Positions 2,687 to 13,875 of a stretch of 64,000 nucleotides of DNA are shown here, piece by piece. The stretch's first letter is position 1; each line of letters starts with the position of its first letter. The translations under genes and the position numbers were made by a program. The stretch is taken from contig NZ_JADEWH010000010.1 in NCBI RefSeq assembly GCF_015207755.1, positions 62,001 to 126,000 of the forward strand, written 5' to 3'. The DNA comes from Nodularia sp. LEGE 06071. Lineage in GTDB: Bacteria > Cyanobacteriota > Cyanobacteriia > Cyanobacteriales > Nostocaceae. Under the pieces are notes generated by a model. That model did no database searches and had not been told where the DNA came from. It was given only the letters and a program-made list of their open reading frames with translations.

Positions 2687-3709
2687 ATGAAACGTCTTGT
2701 GGTTTGCTGTGATGGAACTTGGCAAAATTTAGCCAGTCCTTGCCCAAGCAATGTAGTTAAGTTAGCTCAATCTGTGAAACCGATCGCCAATGATGGAATT
2801 ACACAGATCGTATTTTATGACGCGGGCATTGGCACCGAGAGTAAAAAAATTTTAGGGGGAGTTACCGGAGCCGGAATTGATAAAAATATAGAAGATGGCT
2901 ACCGTTTTCTGAGTATCAATTATACCCCCGGTGACGAAATCTATCTGTTCGGTTTCAGCCGTGGTGCCTACACAGTTAGAAGCCTCGCAGGGATGATCTA
3001 TTGTTCTGGTCTTCTCAACCGCAGCAATATCACCAAAGCACATGAAGCTTACGAGCTTTACCGTAACCGGAGTATTAAACCCAGTGATCTCGAAGCAACG
3101 GCATACCGTAAAATTTACGGCGATCGCGTCCCGATCACCTTGCTCGGTTGTTTTGACACCGTTGGCTCCCTGGGTATTCCTACGCTACCCTTCTTCAGTA
3201 TATTGCCCGGACATCTGAATAAGCGGTACAGATTCCATGACACTACCTTAAACAGATGTATTCAGAATGCATTGCACGCTATGGCGATCGACGAAATCCG
3301 CAAAATTTTTGATATCACCCCCATGCAAAAGCATCCTGAAGCCGACGACCAAAGCCAGAGGGTGATTCAAAAGTGGTTCCCAGGTAGCCACGGTTGCGTT
3401 GGTGGTGGAACCGAAGAATATATTGGGTTATCAGATGCTGCCTTACAGTGGATGATTGACTCCATCAGTGAAATGAAATTGGGGCTTGACTTCGATATAA
3501 GTGTAATTCCCACAGGTATTAACCCCAATTATGAATGTGACTTTAAAAATGATCCTGGATTTTTTAAACTTGCAGGAATCAAGTTTCGTGAAGTCAGCGA
3601 TGTCATTGAAGACGTTCATGACAGCACGATCAAGCGTTTGAAAAATCGCAAAGATTATCGACCCAAAAATCTCCAAAAGATTATTTCTAAACTGCAAGAT
3701 TTAGAATAA
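2687..3709 (+). CDS. DUF2235 alpha/beta-hydrolase (Tle1-type phospholipase-like)
   Basis: The protein has 340 residues and belongs to the DUF2235 (PF09994) family, whose characterised members include type VI secretion phospholipase A effectors and other Ser hydrolases. The family signature opens the protein (VVCCDGTWQN), and the nucleophile elbow GFSRGAYTVRSLAG places the catalytic Ser near residue 91. The HGCVGGG segment near residue 230 is the usual conserved site for the catalytic His region. There is no signal peptide or membrane helix. No type VI genes are nearby. It lies 73 bp upstream of a fatty acid haem dioxygenase on the same strand, so a role as the lipase that frees the fatty acid substrate is an attractive inference, not shown by sequence. 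Confidence 0.85.
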   Translation: MKRLVVCCDGTWQNLASPCPSNVVKLAQSVKPIANDGITQIVFYDAGIGTESKKILGGVTGAGIDKNIEDGYRFLSINYTPGDEIYLFGFSRGAYTVRSLAGMIYCSGLLNRSNITKAHEAYELYRNRSIKPSDLEATAYRKIYGDRVPITLLGCFDTVGSLGIPTLPFFSILPGHLNKRYRFHDTTLNRCIQNALHAMAIDEIRKIFDITPMQKHPEADDQSQRVIQKWFPGSHGCVGGGTEEYIGLSDAALQWMIDSISEMKLGLDFDISVIPTGINPNYECDFKNDPGFFKLAGIKFREVSDVIEDVHDSTIKRLKNRKDYRPKNLQKIISKLQDLE

Positions 3710-3782
3710 ATTTGGTTAATCGCAGCCGAGAAATTTCGGATGCATTGCAGAGATAATTGAAAAAAAGCAGGTAAAAATAATT

Positions 3783-5411
3783 ATGGCTGGAAAAAGAGAT
3801 ACATCCAAAGACGGGTTAGGTAACAAACTTCAGACATTACTTTTAACCAATTTTAAAGGATTTTGGCAACTTCTCCAAAGCAACGAATCTCTAAAACGTA
3901 AAGTTAACAAAACTCTACTTAATAGTCTCATCTATAAAATTCCGACTCGTCCTAATCCCTACAGTATGATGACTCTAGATGAGTATATTCCTGATACTAA
4001 AATTCCTAAAAAAACTGATACTTATACCTCCTGGGAATCACTCAATGATCGCACTTATACAGGACGACATCTACCACCCGATCCCAAGTTAAACGCCGAG
4101 GGGAACCTTCCCAAAGTTGAAGACCTGGCTATTTTATTCCGGAAAAAAGACGGTAAAACCATTTATTCTAGCAAATCAACCATGTTGTTTCCCTATTGGG
4201 TACAGTGGTTTACAGATAGCTTCCTTCGGATTGATCACCACAATAAACTAAAAAATACTTCCAATCATGAAATTGATTTGTGTAACGTTTATGGTTTAAC
4301 CAGGAAACAAACACATCTTTTAAGAAGTTTTCAAGGAGGTAAATTAAAAACTCAGAAACTCAAACGCCAAGACGGTGTAGAAGAAGAATATCCCTTGTTT
4401 TATTATGCTGATGCAGCACAAGATCAAGTTAACCCTGAATTTGAAGGTCTTTATCAACCCCTAAACGACGAAAAAAGACAGCCCGTAGAAAAAAAACAAT
4501 ATATGTTTGCGATGGGAGTAGAACGAGCCAATGTCCAAATTGGCTATGTCATGCTCAACACTCTCTGTCTTCGGGAACATAATCGTCTTTGTGATCAACT
4601 AGCAAGCAATTATCCAGATTGGGATGATGAACGGCTCTTTCAAACATCGAGAAATATTCTCATGGCGATGATTCTTAAAATCATCATGGAAGAGTACATT
4701 AACCACATCACTCCATATCACTTTAAATTGTTTGCCGATCCTGAAGCTTTTACAAAGGAAAGTTGGTATCGTACCAATTATATGGCCATTGAGTTCGACT
4801 TCGTTTATCGCTGGCATAGTGCCATTCCAGAAACTTTCAACTATAACGGTAAACCAACCCATATTGCAGCATCCCTGTGGAACAATAAGATGTTTATTGA
4901 CCAGGGTTTAGGGCCATTGATGGAAGAAACTTGTTCTCAACCAGGGACAAAAATTGGTTTATTTAACACCCCTGATATATTGGTTGAATTAACTGAATTA
5001 CCCTCAATCCGACTAGGAAGACAGCTGCAATTAGCAAGCTACAACGATTATCGCCAAATGTGTGGTTTTCCCAGAGTGACTAAATTTGAACAAGTTACCA
5101 GCGATGAATTTGCTCAAAAGAAACTCAAAGAATTATATGGTCATGTTGATAAAATTGAGTTCTTTGTCGGGCTTTATGCCGAGGATGGGCGAGAAAATTC
5201 CACGATTCCGCCTCTAGTAGCACGCTTAATTGGAATTGATGCCTTTTCTCAGGCGCTAACTAATCCTTTACTATCACCCAATATCTTCAATAAAGAGACT
5301 TTTTCTCCTGTGGGTTGGGAAATTATTCAGAATACCAAAACAGTCTCAGATTTAGTTAATCGGAATGTTCCGGCATCAGACAAGAAGTACAAAGTTACTT
5401 TTGACCTTTAA
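3783..5411 (+). CDS. Cyclooxygenase-like fatty acid haem dioxygenase (likely linoleate 10S-dioxygenase)
   Basis: The protein has 542 residues and belongs to the animal haem peroxidase / cyclooxygenase superfamily (PF03098). The motif YRWHS at 342-346 matches the COX pair of radical Tyr (Tyr385) and proximal haem His (His388), giving Tyr342 and His345 here. The helix around LREHNRLCDQL is the usual peroxidase-family core. In Nostoc punctiforme a COX relative directly upstream of a catalase-related gene was characterised as a linoleate/oleate 10S-dioxygenase (Brash and colleagues, 2014), and the gene order here is the same. The helix that should carry the distal His reads YWVQWFTDSF: Gln141 is kept, but Asp145 sits where COX has His207. 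No signal peptide, EGF or membrane-binding module is present. The expected product is a 10-hydroperoxide. Confidence 0.85.
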   Translation: MAGKRDTSKDGLGNKLQTLLLTNFKGFWQLLQSNESLKRKVNKTLLNSLIYKIPTRPNPYSMMTLDEYIPDTKIPKKTDTYTSWESLNDRTYTGRHLPPDPKLNAEGNLPKVEDLAILFRKKDGKTIYSSKSTMLFPYWVQWFTDSFLRIDHHNKLKNTSNHEIDLCNVYGLTRKQTHLLRSFQGGKLKTQKLKRQDGVEEEYPLFYYADAAQDQVNPEFEGLYQPLNDEKRQPVEKKQYMFAMGVERANVQIGYVMLNTLCLREHNRLCDQLASNYPDWDDERLFQTSRNILMAMILKIIMEEYINHITPYHFKLFADPEAFTKESWYRTNYMAIEFDFVYRWHSAIPETFNYNGKPTHIAASLWNNKMFIDQGLGPLMEETCSQPGTKIGLFNTPDILVELTELPSIRLGRQLQLASYNDYRQMCGFPRVTKFEQVTSDEFAQKKLKELYGHVDKIEFFVGLYAEDGRENSTIPPLVARLIGIDAFSQALTNPLLSPNIFNKETFSPVGWEIIQNTKTVSDLVNRNVPASDKKYKVTFDL

Positions 5412-5431
5412 GAAATTGTAATAGCCATTCT

Positions 5432-5466
5432 GTAGCGTGCGTTATAGCGAAGCGTAACGCACCATA
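5432..5466. repeat. Small dispersed hairpin repeat (GTGCGTTA...TAACGCAC family)
   Basis: A perfect 8-bp inverted repeat, 5437-5444 against 5455-5462, encloses the loop TAGCGAAGCG. It sits in the 84-bp gap between the dioxygenase and lyase genes. The loop and stem resemble copies at 6707-6784 and 55217-55242, so I class them as one family of small mobile repeats of the kind known in Nostocales. It could also damp or stabilise the shared transcript. Confidence 0.6.
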
Positions 5467-5495
5467 AAAATAAACTCAATTAATCCTATCCCAAA

Positions 5496-6677
5496 ATGAA
5501 ACTATTTACCGAATATCCAGAAAAAGACGAACTCAAATATTCCAATCTCATGAGTGACCTAGCTACAAAGCGAATGGAAAATCTTTACGGGGATGAGAAA
5601 AAAGAACCCGCCAAAAGAGATACTCATGCTAAAACCCACGCTGCTGTTCAAGGAACTCTGGAAATCTTTGACTTTGATGAAGCAGCAATTAAACAAGAAT
5701 TGAGCAAACGCACCTCATTAACAGCAGCTCAACTTTCAGCCATTTCCCTAAAACAAGGTTTATTTGCCAAACAGAAACAATATCCGGTGTGGTTACGATT
5801 TGCTAATGGTGCCTTTTCCGTAAAAAATGATTATGAACCAGACACACGCTCGATGGCTGTAAAAGTGATTGGGGTAGAAGGAGAACGACTACCGCAAAGT
5901 CACGAGTTAAAAACCCAGGATATTATTGTCCACAATGTCGAATTCTTTTTTGTTAAAACCATTAAAAAGTTTTACAGCTTTTTTTTAGCGGTTTATCGAT
6001 CTGGGCTATCTCCATTTCTGAAGCTGTCCACGCTTTTATGGCTACTGTTCAATCCCCATGAATTCTCACTTCTAAAAAATGGTTTCAAACGGACTCCCAA
6101 GAGTTTGCTCACAGAACGCTATTGGAGTGCTTCAGCCTATTCCCTGGGACTCAAATCTGATTTTGACCCCACCAAAACGAGTCTAGTTCCTGTGGAATAT
6201 CCGGCTGTAATTAAATATGCATTTACTCCGGTTTCCAATCAAGCACCTCATCAACAGCTTCCTTTCCAGGAAAGACCAGAAAGCGAACTGAAGAGTGCCA
6301 AAGCATTAGGTTCAGAGGACAACTACTACCGAGAGGATCTAACTCAAGCTTTAGCAAAACCTGATGCTGAATACCATTGGGACTTTCAAATCCAATTTCA
6401 AACTAGCCCAACGATGTCCATCGATGATACTACCATAGCGTGGAATGAAGAGGAATCACCCTTCATTACAGTTGGTCGTCTGACAGTTAAGCATCAAAAC
6501 ATTCACTCTCCTCAAGAAGATGACTTTGGAGAAAATCTCCGCTTTTCTGTTTGGAATGGTCTAGCAGTACATCGTCCTGTCGGCGCGATTAATCGGTTAC
6601 GTAGCATAGTGTATCCTATCGTTGCTGAGTACCGACATAAAAAAAGAGGAGTCAAATACCAAGAACCAACAGTCTAA
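5496..6677 (+). CDS. Catalase-related fatty acid hydroperoxide lyase
   Basis: The protein has 393 residues, shorter than a true catalase (about 480 or more), and has the minimal catalase-fold layout seen in catalase-related allene oxide synthases and lyases. The distal site RDTHAKTHAAVQG supplies His48, RFANGAFSV follows the family's haem-contact strand, and the proximal motif RSIVY near the C-terminus gives the Arg-x-x-x-Tyr haem ligand pair. It lies 84 bp downstream of the COX-like dioxygenase. In N. punctiforme the enzyme at this position cleaves linoleate 10S-hydroperoxide to 10-oxo-decenoic acid plus 1-octen-3-ol and 2-octen-1-ol; I infer the same role here by family and position. True catalase activity is unlikely but cannot be excluded from sequence. 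Confidence 0.83.
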   Translation: MKLFTEYPEKDELKYSNLMSDLATKRMENLYGDEKKEPAKRDTHAKTHAAVQGTLEIFDFDEAAIKQELSKRTSLTAAQLSAISLKQGLFAKQKQYPVWLRFANGAFSVKNDYEPDTRSMAVKVIGVEGERLPQSHELKTQDIIVHNVEFFFVKTIKKFYSFFLAVYRSGLSPFLKLSTLLWLLFNPHEFSLLKNGFKRTPKSLLTERYWSASAYSLGLKSDFDPTKTSLVPVEYPAVIKYAFTPVSNQAPHQQLPFQERPESELKSAKALGSEDNYYREDLTQALAKPDAEYHWDFQIQFQTSPTMSIDDTTIAWNEEESPFITVGRLTVKHQNIHSPQEDDFGENLRFSVWNGLAVHRPVGAINRLRSIVYPIVAEYRHKKRGVKYQEPTV

Positions 6678-6898: not shown

Positions 6899-7552
6899 AT
6901 GGGAATTAATAATCTGTTTTCGGCTGGCGGTGTGGTCATGTGGCCGCTATTCGGGTTTTCAGTGTTAGCCGTAGCCCTGATTATTGAACGTATTCGGTTT
7001 TGGGTGAGAATCAATAACCGTCAAAGCATTGTGATTAGAGAGGTATTGAAACTTTATCGACTAGATAACGTAGTGGGCGCAATGGATAAACTCCGGAAAA
7101 ATGCAGATTTGCCTTTAGCGCGCATTTTTCTTTCCCCTCTGGAATTGGAAGAACCGAACCCCGAAGAATTTCGTTTAGCACTAGAAAGTGAAGCTCAAGC
7201 AGAGATACCTTTACTCAAACGCTTTCAAAACATCTTTGAGACAATTATCGGTTTAGCCCCACTATTAGGTCTACTGGGTACTGTATTGGGATTAATTGCT
7301 TCCTTTGCTTCCCTAGATATCGGTGATGTGGGAGGTACGAAAACCGCAGGTGTAACTGCTGGTATCAGTGAAGCTTTGGTTTCTACAGCGACAGGATTGG
7401 TAGTTGCGATATTTACACTCTTATTTGCCAACTCTTTTCGCGGTTTATATGTCCGTCAAATAGCACTCATCCAAGAGTACGGGGGACAATTAGAGTTACT
7501 TTACCGCCGACGCTACGAACGAGGAGAGAAAAGTTATGCGCCTACCAGATGA
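6899..7552 (+). CDS. exbB: MotA/TolQ/ExbB family proton channel protein
   Basis: The protein has 217 residues and belongs to PF01618. It contains three membrane segments: an N-terminal one around GVVMWPLFGFSVLAVALIIE, then a pair after the cytoplasmic loop (IIGLAPLLGLLGTVLGLIAS and ALVSTATGLVVAIFTLLFAN). The GLLGTVLG and STATGLVVA segments are the conserved pore-lining signature. ExbB pentamers with ExbD use the proton gradient to energise TonB or related envelope machines. Its stop codon overlaps the start of the ExbD gene by 17 bp, so the two are translationally coupled. No tonB or TonB-dependent receptor is seen in this window, so the powered partner is unknown. Confidence 0.88.
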   Translation: MGINNLFSAGGVVMWPLFGFSVLAVALIIERIRFWVRINNRQSIVIREVLKLYRLDNVVGAMDKLRKNADLPLARIFLSPLELEEPNPEEFRLALESEAQAEIPLLKRFQNIFETIIGLAPLLGLLGTVLGLIASFASLDIGDVGGTKTAGVTAGISEALVSTATGLVVAIFTLLFANSFRGLYVRQIALIQEYGGQLELLYRRRYERGEKSYAPTR

Positions 7553-7940
7553 AGCAGATTTACCAGCACAGATCAACATCTTACCGATGATTGATGTGAT
7601 CTTTGCGATTTTAACCTTTTTTATCATGTCAACGCTGTTTTTAACTAGGTCTGAAGGTTTGCCCGTTAATTTACCTACGGCGACCACAGCCACACAGCAG
7701 CAAATTCCCATGAAAATTACCGTAACGGTAGACGAACAAGGAATAATTAGCGTCAATCGTCAACCTAGTAAAGTTGATTCATTAGCAGACCAACTGCGGA
7801 CTATCATTGGTTCTAACTCAGAAGCGTTGGTAATTATTAATGCTGATGAAAAAGTAGGTCATGGTCAGGTAGTAGCAATTATGGATCGAGTGCGTCAGGT
7901 AAAAGGGGCGAAATTAGCCATTTCTACACAAAAACCTTAA
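7536..7940 (+). CDS. exbD: ExbD/TolR family biopolymer transport protein
   Basis: The protein has 134 residues and belongs to PF02472. A short cytoplasmic N-terminus leads to a single membrane helix with the family signature INILPMIDVIFAILTFF, which carries the proton-conducting Asp (in PMIDV). The periplasmic domain follows (ITVTVDEQG...VIINADEKVGHGQVVAIMDRVRQ), the usual ExbD/TolR fold. It overlaps exbB by 17 bp and is closed by a strong terminator at 7978-8016, so exbB-exbD is a two-gene operon. It should act with ExbB as the inner-membrane proton motor. Confidence 0.88.
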   Translation: MRLPDEADLPAQINILPMIDVIFAILTFFIMSTLFLTRSEGLPVNLPTATTATQQQIPMKITVTVDEQGIISVNRQPSKVDSLADQLRTIIGSNSEALVIINADEKVGHGQVVAIMDRVRQVKGAKLAISTQKP

Positions 7941-8216: not shown

Positions 8217-8468
8217 ATGTTGAACCCATTATTTACCGAAGTATCCTCTGAGCAACAAGAAGCAGTAGTTGGTGGATTTACCTTTAACTTTGGTAACACT
8301 TTCTTTACTGGCAGCCAAGAAAATACTTCCACAACCACAACCTCTACCCCTGATGGTGGTAGCACCACAACCAGCACCACTGGAAACGTGCAAATTAACA
8401 CCACTGGATTAACCTTCAACGGATTCAATCTACCTGCTAACTTCTTGTCCGGCGGTGTAACACCATAA
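8217..8468 (+). CDS. Double-glycine leader peptide 1 (CTB-type bacteriocin-like precursor)
   Basis: The 83-residue precursor has leader MLNPLFTEVSSEQQEAVVGG, with the GG cleavage site after residue 20. The leader pattern L-F-T-E-V-S-x-x-Q-Q-E-x-V-x-G-G is shared by the next three genes and fits the cyanobacterial GG-leader peptide family exported by C39-peptidase ABC transporters. The predicted mature peptide is about 63 residues, rich in Ser, Thr, Asn and Gly, with no Cys, so thioether or disulphide cross-links are excluded. It keeps a motif TTGLTFNGFNL also found, with changes, in the sister peptides. The sequence before the ATG (CCAAGAGATAACAACC) matches that of the third gene and of the relic at 9245. 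The function of the mature peptide is unknown. Confidence 0.8.
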   Translation: MLNPLFTEVSSEQQEAVVGGFTFNFGNTFFTGSQENTSTTTTSTPDGGSTTTSTTGNVQINTTGLTFNGFNLPANFLSGGVTP

Positions 8469-8488
8469 GGTTAATTAATTAACCCCCC

Positions 8489-8524
8489 CCTGAGTTGAGT
8501 GGCTAAAACGACTACCCACTCAGG
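8489..8524 (+). promoter_or_regulatory. Intergenic hairpin 1 of the peptide cluster
   Basis: CCTGAGT at 8489-8495 pairs with ACTCAGG at 8518-8524. The interior contains CTAAAACGACTAC, the same core as hairpin 2. It lies between the first and second peptide genes and is followed by an AT-rich stretch with a short T-run. It could be a leaky terminator or an RNA-processing site. Confidence 0.5.
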
Positions 8525-8570
8525 TAAAATTTTCCATTAGTAATAATACTCATCGCAACAAATGAAGATC

Positions 8571-8816
8571 ATGTCAAACCCATTATTTATCGAAGTATCC
8601 TCTGAGCAACAAGAAGTAACTGCCGGTGGAATTACGATTAATTTTGGTGCAACCAATTTTTTTGGAAGTATCGGCATAACCACCACAACCACTACGTCTC
8701 TTCCTGACGGTGGTAGCGAAACAATCAGCGAAACTGACAACACAACAGTTGAGACATCTGGTATCGTGTTTGCTGGATTCGATCTAACTGAAGATTTATT
8801 TAGTACTTTATTTTAG
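8571..8816 (+). CDS. Double-glycine leader peptide 2 (CTB-type bacteriocin-like precursor)
   Basis: The 81-residue precursor is read from ATG 8571; an in-frame ATG nine bases upstream is possible, but alignment with the sister leaders (MSNPLFIEVSSEQQEVTAGG) favours 8571. Cleavage is expected after the GG at residues 19-20. The mature part (about 61 residues) is Thr/Ser/Asp-rich with no Cys and shares PDGGS and ETSGIVFAGFDL with peptide 1 (PDGGS, NTTGLTFNGFNL). The leader is nearly identical to that of gene 1 while the cores differ, the pattern expected for tandem duplication with diversification of the exported part. Confidence 0.78.
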   Translation: MSNPLFIEVSSEQQEVTAGGITINFGATNFFGSIGITTTTTTSLPDGGSETISETDNTTVETSGIVFAGFDLTEDLFSTLF

Positions 8817-8830
8817 TACTAATAGCCTCC

Positions 8831-8866
8831 CTTGAGTTGAGTAGTCAAAACGACTACTAACTTAAG
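8831..8866 (+). promoter_or_regulatory. Intergenic hairpin 2 of the peptide cluster
   Basis: A long stem, 8831-8846 against 8852-8866, has one bulge and one G-U pair, closed by the loop AAAAC. This is the strongest of the three related hairpins and lies 15 bp after the second peptide stop. AGTAAATTTTG follows, a weak T-run, so partial termination is plausible. Confidence 0.55.
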
Positions 8867-8897
8867 TAAATTTTGTTAACACCAAGAGATAAAAATC

Positions 8898-9161
8898 ATG
8901 TCAAACTCATTGTTTACCGAAGTATCCGCAAAGCAACAAGAAACCGTAGCAGGTGGATTCAGCTTCAATTTTAGTGGAACTACTTTCTTAGGACTACAAA
9001 CAGCTACAGGAACTGGCTCTACCTCTACTCCAGCTGGTAGTCAAACACTTAGCGAAAATGCTTTAATAGAAGTTGATACAACAGGTACAACTGCTAACGG
9101 ACTGGATCTACCCGCAGATTTTAACCTGGCATCTTTCTTTTCTGCATTCTTCGGTGCTTAA
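8898..9161 (+). CDS. Double-glycine leader peptide 3 (CTB-type bacteriocin-like precursor)
   Basis: The 87-residue precursor has leader MSNSLFTEVSAKQQETVAGG and a GG cleavage site at residues 19-20. The predicted mature peptide of 67 residues begins FSFNFSGTTFLG, matching FTFNFGNTFFTG of peptide 1, and has DTTGTTANGLDLPADF in the place of the NTTGLTFNGFNLP motif. It ends with a hydrophobic tail (LASFFSAFFGA) that could insert in membranes. There is no Cys. The translation start region ACCAAGAGATAAAAATC is shared with gene 1 and with the relic copy. Export and leader removal by the C39 transporter at 10299 is the likely path. Confidence 0.78.
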   Translation: MSNSLFTEVSAKQQETVAGGFSFNFSGTTFLGLQTATGTGSTSTPAGSQTLSENALIEVDTTGTTANGLDLPADFNLASFFSAFFGA

Positions 9162-9178
9162 ATAGCTGATGAATAGCA

Positions 9179-9214
9179 CCAGAGTTGATAGATCAAAACA
9201 TCTGCCAACTCTGG
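9179..9214 (+). promoter_or_regulatory. Intergenic hairpin 3 of the peptide cluster
   Basis: CCAGAGTTGATAGAT at 9179-9193 pairs with 9200-9214 apart from two central mismatches, with the loop CAAAAC. The position after the third peptide gene and the A-rich loop match the other two hairpins, while the stem bases differ. The fold therefore seems to be kept rather than the sequence. Confidence 0.5.
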
Positions 9215-9244
9215 TAATTCTTGTTTGCACCAAGAGATAAAACC

Positions 9245-9271
9245 ATGTCTAATGGATTTCTTTTGGTGTGA
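9245..9271 (+). pseudogene. Relic of a fifth GG-leader peptide gene
   Basis: The translation start region CACCAAGAGATAAAACC followed by ATG TCT AAT repeats the start of genes 1-3, but the frame ends after eight codons (MSNGFLLV) and no leader follows. This looks like a decayed or deleted copy in the tandem array. Its start signal is intact, so it could still make a short useless peptide. Confidence 0.55.
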
Positions 9272-9286
9272 ATCTATCAAATATAG

Positions 9287-9359
9287 CTCTGTCTTTCCTG
9301 AGTTTTCCTATAGGTTTAGATAAACCTAATAGCTAAAAACCTTTGGACAGAGTATTTTT
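9287..9359 (+). terminator. Nested hairpin with T-run before peptide gene 4
   Basis: CTCTGTC at 9287-9293 pairs with GACAGAG at 9346-9352, followed by TATTTTT. Inside lies a second perfect stem, TAGGTTT at 9311-9317 against 9322-9328. It may be a terminator or attenuator that separates peptide gene 4 from genes 1-3. Confidence 0.45.
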
Positions 9360-9394
9360 CTAGTAAAGATTCCTAATACGAAGAAATAAACACG

Positions 9395-9685
9395 ATGTTT
9401 GACCAATTATTTACAGAAATATCTGTTGAAGATCAAGAAACCGTAACTGGTGGTTTGGATCTTAATGCGTCTTTGACTACATTTTTTGCCCAACAAACTA
9501 ACTCTACTACTGGCGCTCAATCTGGGTTTGGAGGTAGTACAGCAGGCGGTAGTAATTCTTCTCTGACAGTGTTCACAACTGGTTTGACTTTAAATTACTT
9601 TAATGGTGTAACACCACCACCACCAATTCCCAATCCCAATCCCAATCCCAATCCAGGCCCAACCCCAGGACCTGTAAATCCATAG
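9395..9685 (+). CDS. Double-glycine leader peptide 4, proline-rich tail
   Basis: The 96-residue precursor has leader MFDQLFTEISVEDQETVTGG, more diverged than the other three but with the same L-F-T-E-x-S...Q-E-x-V-x-G-G pattern. The mature part keeps the FTTGLTLNYFNG variant of the family motif, and then adds a tail of PNPNPNPN and PGPTPGP repeats not found in the sister peptides. There is no Cys. It lies 614 bp upstream of the transporter gene. The Pro-Asn tail may be a spacer or cell-wall-binding piece; that is a guess. The start is ATG 9395, at the same distance from an AT-rich AAGAAATAAAC stretch as the other genes. Confidence 0.72.
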   Translation: MFDQLFTEISVEDQETVTGGLDLNASLTTFFAQQTNSTTGAQSGFGGSTAGGSNSSLTVFTTGLTLNYFNGVTPPPPIPNPNPNPNPGPTPGPVNP

Positions 9686-10298
9686 GCAGATAAAATTGGA
9701 TTCTAGAGATTTTTACAGCTTTTAACTGATATTAACTGAAATATCTACATCAGTGTTTCATAAATACATTGTGAATAAAAGTTATAGCTTAAAAATCCTG
9801 CCCTGACTTTTAAATGTCAAGCTTTAGAAATGGTCAGCTATTTATTATTGGGTCGCATAATTAGCAATAATTATCTTGTCTTTTATAGACTGCCCATGAA
9901 TAGCTGACCATTTGTCATATCAAAAATCATGGTAGTTTAAAATATTGCCCAACCACACACAACTACAAAATCCTGAATTATTCATAGAATTAGCAGAAAA
10001 GAAACAGCTCGCTGTTTCTGGGTTAATTTGCTGATTACTCAGTCGTAAAGCCTTAAAAATCCGGGTTTTGTCATGTGGAAGGTGGGAAAGAATCGCTTAC
10101 TCAAAAATAACCAAGTAAAAAAACTCTTAATTTGCACAGTCTCCGCACAGAAAATCGATTCACACAAAATGCAATATCAACAGATTGCAAATTCAAATCT
10201 TACGGAACATGGACAATGAAGGCAATTAAAAATGCTTGACTCATGTTACCTCCCATACCTAAAGGCGATGGGTTTCTACATATCCCACGGAGATTGTT
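9686..10298. other. 613-bp spacer between peptide gene 4 and exporter gene
   Basis: No convincing gene was found here. It holds the large stem-loop listed separately (9831-9910) and a perfect 8-bp hairpin AGAAACAG/CTGTTTCT with loop CTCG at 10000-10019. The exporter promoter should lie in the second half. GGAG at 10291-10294 serves as ribosome binding site for the exporter. Confidence 0.5.
9831..9910. repeat. 80-nt stem-loop with 10-bp perfect ends
   Basis: TGGTCAGCTA at 9831-9840 is perfectly inverted at 9901-9910, and the stem extends inward imperfectly (ATTGGG against CCCATGAA). It could be a tiny mobile element or a structured RNA leader between the peptide genes and the exporter gene. 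Confidence 0.5.
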
Positions 10299-12449
10299 AT
10301 GAAATACCAATTTGTTCGACAGCATAGTGAAGAAGACTGTGGCGCGGCTTGTCTGGCCGCAGTTTCTAAATATCACGGGCGCAATTTTACCCTCAGCCAT
10401 ATCCGCGAAGTTGTAGGTACTGGACAATTTGGCACAACTTTGTTGGGACTGAGGCGAGGTGCAGAAACACTTGGTTTCAATGCTCGTCCTGTGAAAACTT
10501 CATCAGAGTTACTTGAGCGGTTGAATGAAGCTCCTTTACCAGCAATTATTCACTGGAAGGGACAACACTGGGTTGTTTTATACGGCAAAAAAGGCAAAAA
10601 ATATCTCATTGCTGACCCGGCTGTGGGAATGCGTTATCTGTCTACCCAAGATTTAGTCCAGGGTTGGACAGACTGGTTAATGCTATTACTAGAACCAGAT
10701 CCCATCCGCTTTTTTGCCCAAAAAGATGATGAAGTTGGTGGGTTTTTGCGTTTTTTCAAGCGCGTTTGGATTTATCGGACTATTCTCGCCCAAGCTTTAC
10801 CTCTTAACTTGATGTTGGGGGTGCTGTCTTTGGCTTCTCCTTTCTTGCTGCAAATCCTCACTGATGATGTGCTGGTTAGAGGTGATATGAGTTTACTCAC
10901 TACTGTGGTCATGGCTGTAGTAGTGATGAATTTTATTTCTAGTAGCCTTTCTTATGTGCAGTCCAACTTAATCGCCCACTTTGCCCAACGGCTGAAATTA
11001 GGCTTAGTTCTAGATTTTGGGCGACAAATTTTGCAACTACCTCTGTCTTACTACGAAGCTCGGCGGAGTGGAGAAATTGTCAGTAGGCTCAGGGATATTG
11101 ACCAGATTAATCAGTTAATATCTCAAGTAGTTGTCAGCTTACCTAGTCGCTTTTTTGTGGCGGTTATTTCTCTTTGCTTGATGGTTTTCTATAGCTGGAA
11201 ACTGACGGCATTAGCAGCAATTATTGCTGTGGTCATGACTCTATCTACAATTGTTTTTCTACCGACTTTACAGCAAAAAAACCGGGACTTTTTAGTTAAA
11301 TATGCAGAAGCACAGGGGCTTTTAGTAGAAACGTTTAAAGGCGCGCTGACTCTAAAAACCACCACATCAGGGCCACAATTTAAAGATGAATTGCAAGGTG
11401 AATTTGGATTACTGAGTAATTTAGCATTCCGCACCATGCAGATTGGAATTATTAATAATACTTTTTCTGGTTTTGTTTCTAGTATAGGTAGTGTACTTTT
11501 ACTGTGGTTTGGCGGCTATTTGGTGATTAATCCAGCGGAAAATCTCAGCATCGGGCAGCTATTCGCATTTAACGCCATGAATGCTAATTTTCTGGGATTA
11601 ATTGCTACTGTGATTGGTTTTGTGCAACAATTCACTCTTGTGAGAACTGCCACTCAACGTCTTACAGAAGTTATTGACGCTACCCCAGAAAATGAAAATG
11701 ATGGGAAAAAACCTTTTGAGAAAATTCCCGGTGACATGGATATTGTTTGCAGCAATGTTAACTTTCACTATGCTGGCAGACTTGACCTGTTAGAAGACTT
11801 TTCTGTGACTATTCCTGGTGGTAAGGTTACTGCTATAATTGGCAAATCTGGTTGTGGTAAAAGCACTTTAGCAAAACTCATCGCCGGGTTATACCCCATA
11901 AGTTCTGGTAATATTCAGATAGGATTATATAATCTCCAAGACCTGGCTCTAGATTGTCTCCGACAACAGGTAATACTTGTTCCTCAAGATGCCCATTTTT
12001 GGAGTCGTTCTATAGTGGAAAACTTTCGCTTAGGAGCGCCCCATGCTTCCTTTGAGCAGATTGTCAGAGCTTGCAAAATTGCTGAGGCTGATGAATTTAT
12101 TATTAAACTCCCTGATAAATATCAAACGATTTTAGGTGAGTTTGGGGCAAATATTTCTGGGGGACAGCGCCAAAGATTGGCAATAGCAAGAGCGATAATT
12201 ACAGATCCACCAATTCTGATTTTAGACGAATCGACAGGTGGACTTGACCCGGTAAGTGAAGCGCAAGTTTTAGATCAATTATTTAAGCATCGTCAGGGAA
12301 AAACTACAATTTTAATTACTCATCGCCCTAAAGTAATTAATCGGGCTGATTGGGTCGTTTTGTTGGAAAATGGCAAGTTAAAGGAGCAAGGAAATTTAGC
12401 AGATTTGAGCGAAAAACCAGGACAACATTTAGATTTTTTCATCTCTTAA
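10299..12449 (+). CDS. C39-peptidase-containing ABC exporter (PCAT type)
   Basis: The protein has 716 residues. An N-terminal C39 peptidase domain (about 1-135) shows the full catalytic set: Gln8, Cys14 in EEDCGAAC, His90 in GQHWVVL and Asp106 in ADPAVG. Six membrane helices follow (about 160-440), then a nucleotide-binding domain with Walker A GKSGCGKST, signature ISGGQRQRLAIARA, Walker B ILILDEST and the H-loop ITHRP. Such transporters cut GG leaders and export the mature peptide in one step. It sits downstream of four GG-leader genes and 25 bp before an HlyD adaptor gene, so it is the likely processing exporter for them. No lanthipeptide, YcaO or radical-SAM modifying gene is nearby. Confidence 0.93.
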   Translation: MKYQFVRQHSEEDCGAACLAAVSKYHGRNFTLSHIREVVGTGQFGTTLLGLRRGAETLGFNARPVKTSSELLERLNEAPLPAIIHWKGQHWVVLYGKKGKKYLIADPAVGMRYLSTQDLVQGWTDWLMLLLEPDPIRFFAQKDDEVGGFLRFFKRVWIYRTILAQALPLNLMLGVLSLASPFLLQILTDDVLVRGDMSLLTTVVMAVVVMNFISSSLSYVQSNLIAHFAQRLKLGLVLDFGRQILQLPLSYYEARRSGEIVSRLRDIDQINQLISQVVVSLPSRFFVAVISLCLMVFYSWKLTALAAIIAVVMTLSTIVFLPTLQQKNRDFLVKYAEAQGLLVETFKGALTLKTTTSGPQFKDELQGEFGLLSNLAFRTMQIGIINNTFSGFVSSIGSVLLLWFGGYLVINPAENLSIGQLFAFNAMNANFLGLIATVIGFVQQFTLVRTATQRLTEVIDATPENENDGKKPFEKIPGDMDIVCSNVNFHYAGRLDLLEDFSVTIPGGKVTAIIGKSGCGKSTLAKLIAGLYPISSGNIQIGLYNLQDLALDCLRQQVILVPQDAHFWSRSIVENFRLGAPHASFEQIVRACKIAEADEFIIKLPDKYQTILGEFGANISGGQRQRLAIARAIITDPPILILDESTGGLDPVSEAQVLDQLFKHRQGKTTILITHRPKVINRADWVVLLENGKLKEQGNLADLSEKPGQHLDFFIS

Positions 12450-12474
12450 TTAGTAGTAATTGGTCTAGAATAAT

Positions 12475-13875
12475 ATGCTCTATACTCATAGCGAAAAAAT
12501 TCTTCCCGCAGTTAGAACTGAGGATTTTCTGCCTCCTGTTAGCATATGGATGTCTTTAGCGGCAGTAAGTCTGATGGGAACGGTTGTTTCTGGTGTGGCG
12601 CTGGCTTCATTGGTGCAGTATAACGTCACAGTGAAAACGGCGGCTACTGTTCGTCCTGCCGGAGAAGTTAGACTAGTACAGCCACAAACAGAAGGAATTG
12701 TGGAAAATATCTTAGTTCAAGAAAATCAGATTGTTAAAGAAGGAGATGTGATTGCTCGCCTTGATTCTGAGGAATTGCAAATTATCAAGAGTCAATTACA
12801 AGGAAATCTCCAACAAAACTATTTACAACTAATTCAAATCAATGCCCAAATTGACTCTTTAGATACTCAGATTATGGCTGAGGAAAGAGTCATAAAACAG
12901 ACGGTTTTTGCTGCGGAATCTGATTTAGCACGTAATCAAAGAGATTATCAAGAACGACAAGTTGCGACTCAAAATCAATTACAAGCAGCACAAGCTGAAT
13001 TGCGAAGAACACAAGCAGAATTACTAACAGCTCATGCTGTGGTAGCACAAGCCGAAAAGGAAAGCGCTCGCTACGAGGGATTAGCGAAAAGTGGCGTGGT
13101 TAGTTTCAGTCAGTATGAGCAAAAAGCGCTGTTTGTTGATCAAACAAAATCGACGCTGGTAGCCGCCAAAGAAGGTGTGCAGATTGCGGAAACTAAAGTC
13201 CGCATAGCCCAATCGGCGATCGATCCTTCTCAGGCGACTGTCGAAATTGCTGAAAACCGGATTGATCAAGAAGCTGCTAGGGGTGAAGCCACTATCGCTA
13301 CTTTAAAAAAAGAAAAACAAGCTTTAACTCAACGGCGGGTTGATATGCAGAATCAACTCAACCAATTGCAAAAAGAACTTCAACAAGTGCAGAACAAACT
13401 GCAAGGTACTATTATTCGTGCTACCAGTGACGGGATTATTTTCAAGCTCAATTTACGCAACCCCGGACAAGTTGTGCGTGCTAGCGAACCTGTGGCAGAA
13501 ATAGTTCCTCAAAATGCCCCTCTAGAGATTAAAGCGATGATTCCCACTGGAGATATTCAAAAAGTTGAGGTGGGTCAAGAGGTAATCTTACGGGTTGATG
13601 CTTGTCCATATCCTGATTATGGCACTCTCAAAGCTGTGGTTAGTAACATATCTCCAGATGTGATGACAATTCCCGGTAATAGCACGGGTGCTGCTGCTAC
13701 TGCTGCTGCTAGTTTCTTTGAAGCTACTGTACAACCTGAAACGATGACATTTGGGAATGGCGATCGCCAATGTCGAATCCAATCAGGGATGAATACGAAA
13801 GCTGACATTATTTCTAAACAGGAGACAGCTTTGCAATTTGTCCTGAGAAGGGCTAGATTAATGACTGATTTATAA
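12475..13875 (+). CDS. HlyD family periplasmic adaptor protein
   Basis: The protein has 466 residues. A single membrane helix lies at about residues 23-45 (MSLAAVSLMGTVVSGVALASL). A biotinyl-lipoyl-like half domain follows (VRPAGEVRLVQPQTEG...VLEGD-type sequence VKEGDVIARL), then a long alpha-hairpin coiled coil (about 95-320, rich in Gln, Ala and Glu), the second lipoyl half (GTIIRATSDGIIFKLN) and a beta-barrel region. The adaptor links the inner-membrane exporter to a TolC-type outer-membrane channel, which is not encoded in this window. It lies 25 bp after the PCAT gene and is probably co-transcribed with it. Confidence 0.9.
   Translation: MLYTHSEKILPAVRTEDFLPPVSIWMSLAAVSLMGTVVSGVALASLVQYNVTVKTAATVRPAGEVRLVQPQTEGIVENILVQENQIVKEGDVIARLDSEELQIIKSQLQGNLQQNYLQLIQINAQIDSLDTQIMAEERVIKQTVFAAESDLARNQRDYQERQVATQNQLQAAQAELRRTQAELLTAHAVVAQAEKESARYEGLAKSGVVSFSQYEQKALFVDQTKSTLVAAKEGVQIAETKVRIAQSAIDPSQATVEIAENRIDQEAARGEATIATLKKEKQALTQRRVDMQNQLNQLQKELQQVQNKLQGTIIRATSDGIIFKLNLRNPGQVVRASEPVAEIVPQNAPLEIKAMIPTGDIQKVEVGQEVILRVDACPYPDYGTLKAVVSNISPDVMTIPGNSTGAAATAAASFFEATVQPETMTFGNGDRQCRIQSGMNTKADIISKQETALQFVLRRARLMTDL

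Follow-up and report, generated by a model that had tools for sequence, protein, structure and literature searches.

A DUF2235 hydrolase gene conserved upstream of COX-like dioxygenase and catalase-related genes in a predicted oxylipin cassette of Nodularia and other cyanobacteria

Results

The locus and its predicted proteins

A stretch of 64,000 nucleotides from Nodularia sp. LEGE 06071 (contig NZ_JADEWH010000010.1, positions 62,001 to 126,000; hereafter the window) carries three intact open reading frames (ORFs) head to tail on the + strand, which encode a DUF2235 hydrolase, a cyclooxygenase (COX)-like dioxygenase and a catalase-related protein (Table 1). An earlier note on this DNA had described them as a three-gene oxylipin locus, and the ORF list together with Pfam searches confirmed the order, the strand, the intactness of the genes and the spacing of 73 bp between hydrolase and dioxygenase; the gap between dioxygenase and lyase genes is 84 bp. 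The genome (5.58 Mb in 54 contigs) gave a single PF09994 match in a profile search. NCBIfam held a model for none of the three proteins, no evident N-terminal signal peptide was seen in them when judged by eye, and a motif scan found no + strand terminator-like site between the cassette genes, which is weak evidence either way.

Table 1. Genes and predicted functional residues of the cassette, in window coordinates.
Feature	Coordinates	Strand	Properties
DUF2235/Tle1-like alpha/beta-hydrolase, proposed lipase freeing fatty acid	2687..3709	+	340 amino acids (aa)
GFSRG nucleophile elbow codons (Ser91; residues 89-93)	2951..2965	+	identical in 45/45 oxygenase-linked rows
Predicted triad acid Asp157	3155..3157	+	45/45 oxygenase-linked rows; after strand 152-156 in model
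Predicted triad base His235	3389..3391	+	45/45 oxygenase-linked rows; after strand 225-231 in model
COX-like haem dioxygenase, predicted linoleate 10S-dioxygenase	3783..5411	+	542 aa, PF03098, prostaglandin synthase match, substrate-site residues
YRWH codons (catalytic Tyr342 and proximal haem His345)	4806..4817	+	invariant in 11 sequences of alignment
Catalase-related haem protein, proposed 10S-hydroperoxide lyase	5496..6677	+	393 aa, PF00199, AlphaFold2 (AF2) fold match
RxxxY motif (Arg369-Tyr373)	6600..6614	+	both residues invariant in 23-row alignment

The first protein matched PF09994 (DUF2235, now T6SS_Tle1-like_cat) over profile positions 1-286 of 287 (Pfam, E=1e-80). Its nucleophile elbow, which the earlier note had called intact, is indeed present, and in the structural model Ser91 sits between strand 84-90 and helix 92-107. 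A search of solved structures with the single sequence gave no match for the hydrolase or for the lyase; profile and fold searches did match, and the fold of the hydrolase resembled Tle1-type phospholipases. On homology to TleB and gene context the DUF2235 protein is a putative phospholipase or galactolipase. A role as type VI effector (Tle1) was rejected because no match to TssK (PF05936) was found in the window genome, in a search that covered this apparatus gene alone and in which the Escherichia coli control was positive.

The dioxygenase matched PF03098 (An_peroxidase) at 4.2e-53, and its best matches among solved structures were prostaglandin synthases, with E=2.6e-63 for prostaglandin G/H synthase 2. 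It has the catalytic Tyr and the proximal His of COX-type haem peroxidases, Tyr342 being designated the catalytic residue in a 2026 review (PMC13049297). The same review tabulates (its Table 2) substrate-site residues for a characterised enzyme, the Nostoc punctiforme dioxygenase B2J5P4, which also has 542 aa. With the same numbering and length, the window dioxygenase is identical to B2J5P4 at 30 of these 31 published residues, the exception being residue 477, and the relatives L073 and L074 (loci and genomes are given as L and G numbers) have all 31. The match to the N. punctiforme enzyme claimed in the earlier note is thus borne out indirectly, through residues and length, and the window protein is predicted to be a linoleate 10S-dioxygenase of the N. 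punctiforme type.

The catalase-related protein gave a weak but passing match to PF00199 (Catalase; 1.4e-7, 31.4 bits, cut-off 25). Its AF2 model had a predicted local distance difference test (pLDDT) score of 88, and the top fold match of this model was the 33-kDa catalase-related protein 3e4y, followed by catalases. Arg41, His44 and Lys46 were invariant in 23 homologues, and the RxxxY motif is presumably the proximal haem ligand motif of catalase-type proteins. The protein thus shows a catalase fold of reduced length with a distal His44 and RxxxY, and from its position and the N. punctiforme pair we infer that it is a 10S-hydroperoxide lyase.

Conservation of the gene order

Among the named dioxygenase loci (the 80 best of 215), a hydrolase gene lay upstream of the dioxygenase on the same strand at 36; four of the other 44 (L095, L096, L107 and L135) have less than 1 kb of upstream sequence. 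In a dioxygenase tree of 81 rows, built quickly and without bootstrap and with L148 counted as lacking a hydrolase, the hydrolase occurred in 37 of 43 rows of two clades that include the window and in 0 of 38 others. Within the family of the window organism (217 genomes) a dioxygenase was found in 50 genomes at 54 loci, one of which (G437) has internal stops. At 43 of these loci a same-strand hydrolase gene lies 57-411 bp upstream, at 46 a lyase gene follows downstream, and 42 have both. For the lyase count, 50 of 60 catalase rows were typed and weak ones dropped, which leaves 47 genomes instead of 53. Hydrolase and dioxygenase co-occurred by genome with a Fisher p=3e-25, nominal as the genomes are related. 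The arrangement exceeds chance, and conservation of DUF2235 beside the pair, set beforehand as a check, was found in both the family and the named loci.

At eight loci (L111, L112, L113, L116, L119, L121, L123 and L127) a dioxygenase of 58% identity lies between a hydrolase of 69-79% and a lyase of 79-81% identity to those of the window, which suggests that the middle gene was replaced in place. The clade of these dioxygenases (55-58% identity) differs from the published set at 7 of the 31 substrate-site positions. A different oxygenation position was considered for it, and no change of product is claimed because the lyases at the eight loci are so close to that of the window.

Three further arrangements were recorded. 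In G277 about 1.5 kb with a 402-aa ORF interrupts the dioxygenase gene, between hydrolase and lyase genes (L195, 8361-11342, +). One cyanobacterial genome has a single 1021-aa ORF (L199, 166-3228, -) with an N-terminal catalase-related and a C-terminal animal-peroxidase domain. In the actinobacterium L148 a distant DUF2235 gene lies 3.6 kb downstream of the dioxygenase with a regulator-like gene in between, and it is not claimed as a case of the arrangement.

Fusion of hydrolase and dioxygenase

At five loci (L124, L125, L129, L130 and L131) hydrolase and dioxygenase form a single ORF of 919-944 aa. L124 lies on the complete chromosome of Microcoleus vaginatus HSN003, and both Pfam domains were present in the L130 ORF, the fusion that was checked. 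The linker of about 50-60 aa varies among lineages, yet it is open, whereas the other two frames across the junction have 2-7 stops each. Of the 61 genomes that make up the family of G277, 11 have hydrolase and dioxygenase together: six in a single frame, four side by side with stops (single matches with 1-3 internal stops) and one interrupted. The six single-frame genomes overlap the five named fusion loci, and at least one (G522) appears to be additional.

Association of the same hydrolases with lipoxygenases

In family genomes without a dioxygenase, at six loci (L181, L183, L184, L186, L187 and L188), a close DUF2235 gene is followed downstream by a lipoxygenase gene (PF00305). Counted from the other side, a hydrolase gene was found upstream at six of eight close lipoxygenase loci; 29 of 32 lipoxygenase rows were typed, and the three omitted belong to genomes without a DUF2235 match. 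The 70 DUF2235 rows of the family merged into 68 loci, among which we delimited a subfamily at 60% identity, a cut chosen after a gap between 57 and 65% identity had been seen. Members of this subfamily precede an oxygenase gene at 50 of 55 loci, 43 with a dioxygenase and seven with a lipoxygenase (in one of the latter, G334, the DUF2235 gene is broken), in contrast to 0 of 13 other DUF2235 loci (nominal p=3e-10, as the genomes are related). The five subfamily loci without an oxygenase are in G470, G430 (two, one of them broken), G434, where a broken dioxygenase (L189) stands beside the gene, and G436, where the gene is a fragment at the end of a contig. In G364, one of the seven lipoxygenase-linked loci, only a lipoxygenase remnant follows the DUF2235 gene.

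A DUF2235 tree, again quick and without bootstrap and with rows under 220-250 aa left out, needed three changes for the lipoxygenase-linked genes, and L181 nests among dioxygenase-linked Nostoc genes. This exchange of partner with lipoxygenase is the strongest result of the analysis.

At L081, where DUF2235 is absent, another lipase occupies the corresponding place: a class 3 lipase gene lies 169 bp upstream of a dioxygenase of 89% identity, and the lyase is 79% identical. Around dioxygenases without DUF2235, the scan of neighbours took in 17 of 109 ORFs, at 17 loci; it also gave a patatin (L122) and a DUF900 hydrolase (L095), which are only suggestive, the ORFs having been picked partly by a GxSxG motif.

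Proximity to both types of oxygenase and the fused frames would also fit a hydrolase that acts after oxygenation and strips oxidised acyl chains from membrane lipids, for repair or for release of esterified oxylipins. We consider this order of events unlikely: according to the 2026 review (PMC13049297), the N. punctiforme enzyme oxidises oleic and linoleic acid as such, and a supply of free acid suits the loci with a lipoxygenase or a class 3 lipase equally well.

Cytochrome P450 genes and neighbouring genes

A cytochrome P450 gene lies between the DUF2235 and lipoxygenase genes at L181, L183, L186 and L187. The P450s of L181, L183 and L187 are 57-62% identical to the one beside the L134 dioxygenase; that of L186 is of another kind. 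In bacteria without DUF2235 a P450 gene adjoins the dioxygenase upstream on the same strand at L134 (1170-2540), L141 (8680-9936) and L150 (8377-9921), and in one further such bacterium it lies several kb from the dioxygenase on the other strand (L138, 15718-16998). At L091 (5659-12983, +), genes for a P450, a small ORF, a lipoxygenase, a COX-like dioxygenase and a catalase-related protein follow one another, as two oxygenase cassettes merged.

The ExbB/ExbD genes downstream of the cassette in the window (6899-7940) were considered as members and rejected, as they occurred in none of the 28 neighbour clusters listed besides the three genes; in the same-genus genome L196, ORFs of the same sizes as these come after the catalase gene. 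Further downstream (8217-13875, +), four small ORFs of 83-96 aa, whose similar N-termini end in a double-glycine motif, are followed by genes for a peptidase C39 ATP-binding cassette (ABC) transporter and HlyD. This looks like a secreted-peptide (bacteriocin-type) cluster; two of the four small ORFs were searched against Pfam and neither matched.

Discussion

Gene identities, folds, active-site residues, conserved order, fusion and exchange with lipoxygenase together are the basis on which we regard this locus as probably an oxylipin cassette, in which a dedicated intracellular lipase supplies the adjacent dioxygenase and then the lyase. In such a route, a cytosolic Tle1-like (DUF2235) serine lipase would cleave membrane glycerolipids, with galactolipids or phosphatidylglycerol (PG) as proposed substrate, and so release an unsaturated C18 fatty acid. 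The COX-like dioxygenase would form the 10S-hydroperoxide from linoleate and O2, and the catalase-related protein would split this product into 1-octen-3-ol, some 2-octen-1-ol, and 10-oxo-8-decenoic acid; the dioxygenase and lyase steps are established for the N. punctiforme pair. The 2014 primary paper on N. punctiforme reportedly gives a minor alcohol product (2-octen-1-ol) and 10-oxo-8-decenoic acid. The window genome has 10 matches to desaturase-family genes, two of which are pieces of one place. What we infer here is lipase activity of the hydrolase, its action ahead of the dioxygenase and a common transcript for the three genes. The interpretation of the earlier note is supported overall, the lipase being a putative one.

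Several observations weigh against this reading. The hydrolase was missing at 11 of the 54 family dioxygenase loci, at six loci within the two dioxygenase clades (L081, L083, L089, L091, L107, which has less than 100 bp upstream of the dioxygenase, and L120) and at two of the eight close lipoxygenase loci (G205 and G342). The dioxygenase half of the fusions may be translated separately, since four of the named fusions retain an internal ATG and L125, which has lost the internal start Met, has a GTG a few codons upstream. The window had 8 promoter-like matches against 12.0 expected by chance and 2 terminator-like ones against 3.9, which is weak either way. A literature search turned up no activity data for any cyanobacterial DUF2235 protein. 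Thioesterases and carboxylesterases have the same fold as the hydrolase, with lower scores, and thioesterases such as TesA were among its Foldseek matches, so that the hydrolase might instead be a thioesterase or small-ester hydrolase that frees acids from acyl carriers or processes a downstream product, which seems to us distinctly improbable.

Across the class, an even sample of 291 genomes included 14 with a dioxygenase of at least 50% identity, and only three of these had an adjacent hydrolase, namely the window genome, G277, with its interrupted dioxygenase gene, and G189, with the order dioxygenase, lyase, hydrolase; the dioxygenase therefore exists without the hydrolase. This low count, and the fact that the linked loci are all cyanobacterial and related, would suit a DUF2235 neighbour that is functionally unconnected to the oxygenase pair, its order coming from descent or hitch-hiking. 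Such an origin is very hard to credit: besides the three cassette genes the most widespread neighbour cluster reached just 18 of 81 loci, at scattered positions, the order dioxygenase-catalase-hydrolase also exists (L194), and inertia fails to explain the fused frames and the re-use with a non-homologous oxygenase. A supply role would explain why one hydrolase subfamily works with two unrelated oxygenases.

The characterised pair consists of Npun_R5469 (linoleate 10S-dioxygenase; B2J5P4 in PMC13049297) and Npun_R5468 (catalase-related 10S-hydroperoxide lyase), as given in PMC6307994, and a passage of PMC9579011 states that the catalase-like protein yields 1-octen-3-ol. The window genes resemble this pair in the length, numbering and substrate-site residues of the dioxygenase and in the catalase-related gene directly downstream; they differ from the pair, as described there, in the DUF2235 partner, the dioxygenase fusion and the lipoxygenase-linked homologues. 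With the Tle1 and TleB phospholipases (PF09994) the hydrolase shares catalytic-domain family, fold and Ser-Asp-His order. Unlike the type VI proteins, it is a catalytic domain alone, has oxygenase neighbours and belongs to a genome without a TssK match.

As proposed, the cassette is like the animal phospholipase A2-cyclooxygenase cascade in that a lipase would free the acid, a COX-fold enzyme would oxygenate it and a second haem enzyme would transform the peroxide. It is unlike that cascade in its lipase family, its single gene cassette, its C18 substrate and a catalase-fold lyase rather than a P450, and it relates to the cascade by analogy without being a member of it. Fungal dioxygenase-P450 fusions (linoleate diol synthases, 10R-dioxygenase (10R-DOX)) likewise couple a COX-like dioxygenase to another enzyme of the route, whereas the cyanobacterial partner is an N-terminal hydrolase and the P450 is a separate neighbour at L134, L141 and L150. 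A passage of a 2024 review (PMC11719350) mentions a cyanobacterial fusion of catalase and haem dioxygenase that acts on linoleate; as described there, it differs from the hydrolase-dioxygenase fusion.

The dioxygenase-lyase pair was already known; the tie to a lipase, the hydrolase-dioxygenase fusion and the exchange with lipoxygenase appear to be new. No report of a DUF2235-oxygenase link was found among the titles and abstract openings in the literature searched, a weak negative given that most subscription journals lay outside coverage, and published work on DUF2235 and lipase was, among the matches listed, nearly all on secretion systems. The function proposed here for one DUF2235 subfamily would differ from that of the secreted killing enzymes.

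To our knowledge, the supply of free polyunsaturated acid to bacterial oxylipin enzymes has been little studied. A predicted lipase that gene order, fusions and the exchange of partners connect with two types of oxygenase makes this question testable, and the natural lipase-dioxygenase fusion is offered for production of 1-octen-3-ol from lipids. A wider proposal, for and against which we find the balance about even, is that the distinct DUF2235 subfamily is a dedicated cyanobacterial oxylipin lipase serving COX-like dioxygenase and lipoxygenase in interchangeable cassettes, and that the Microcoleus-type fusion is a single enzyme oxygenating the acid it has just released. If true, this fusion would be the bacterial counterpart, on one polypeptide, of the step from phospholipase to cyclooxygenase, and the cassette would parallel the eicosanoid cascade in bacteria; in many cyanobacteria a single cassette may lead all the way from membrane lipids to a volatile signal.

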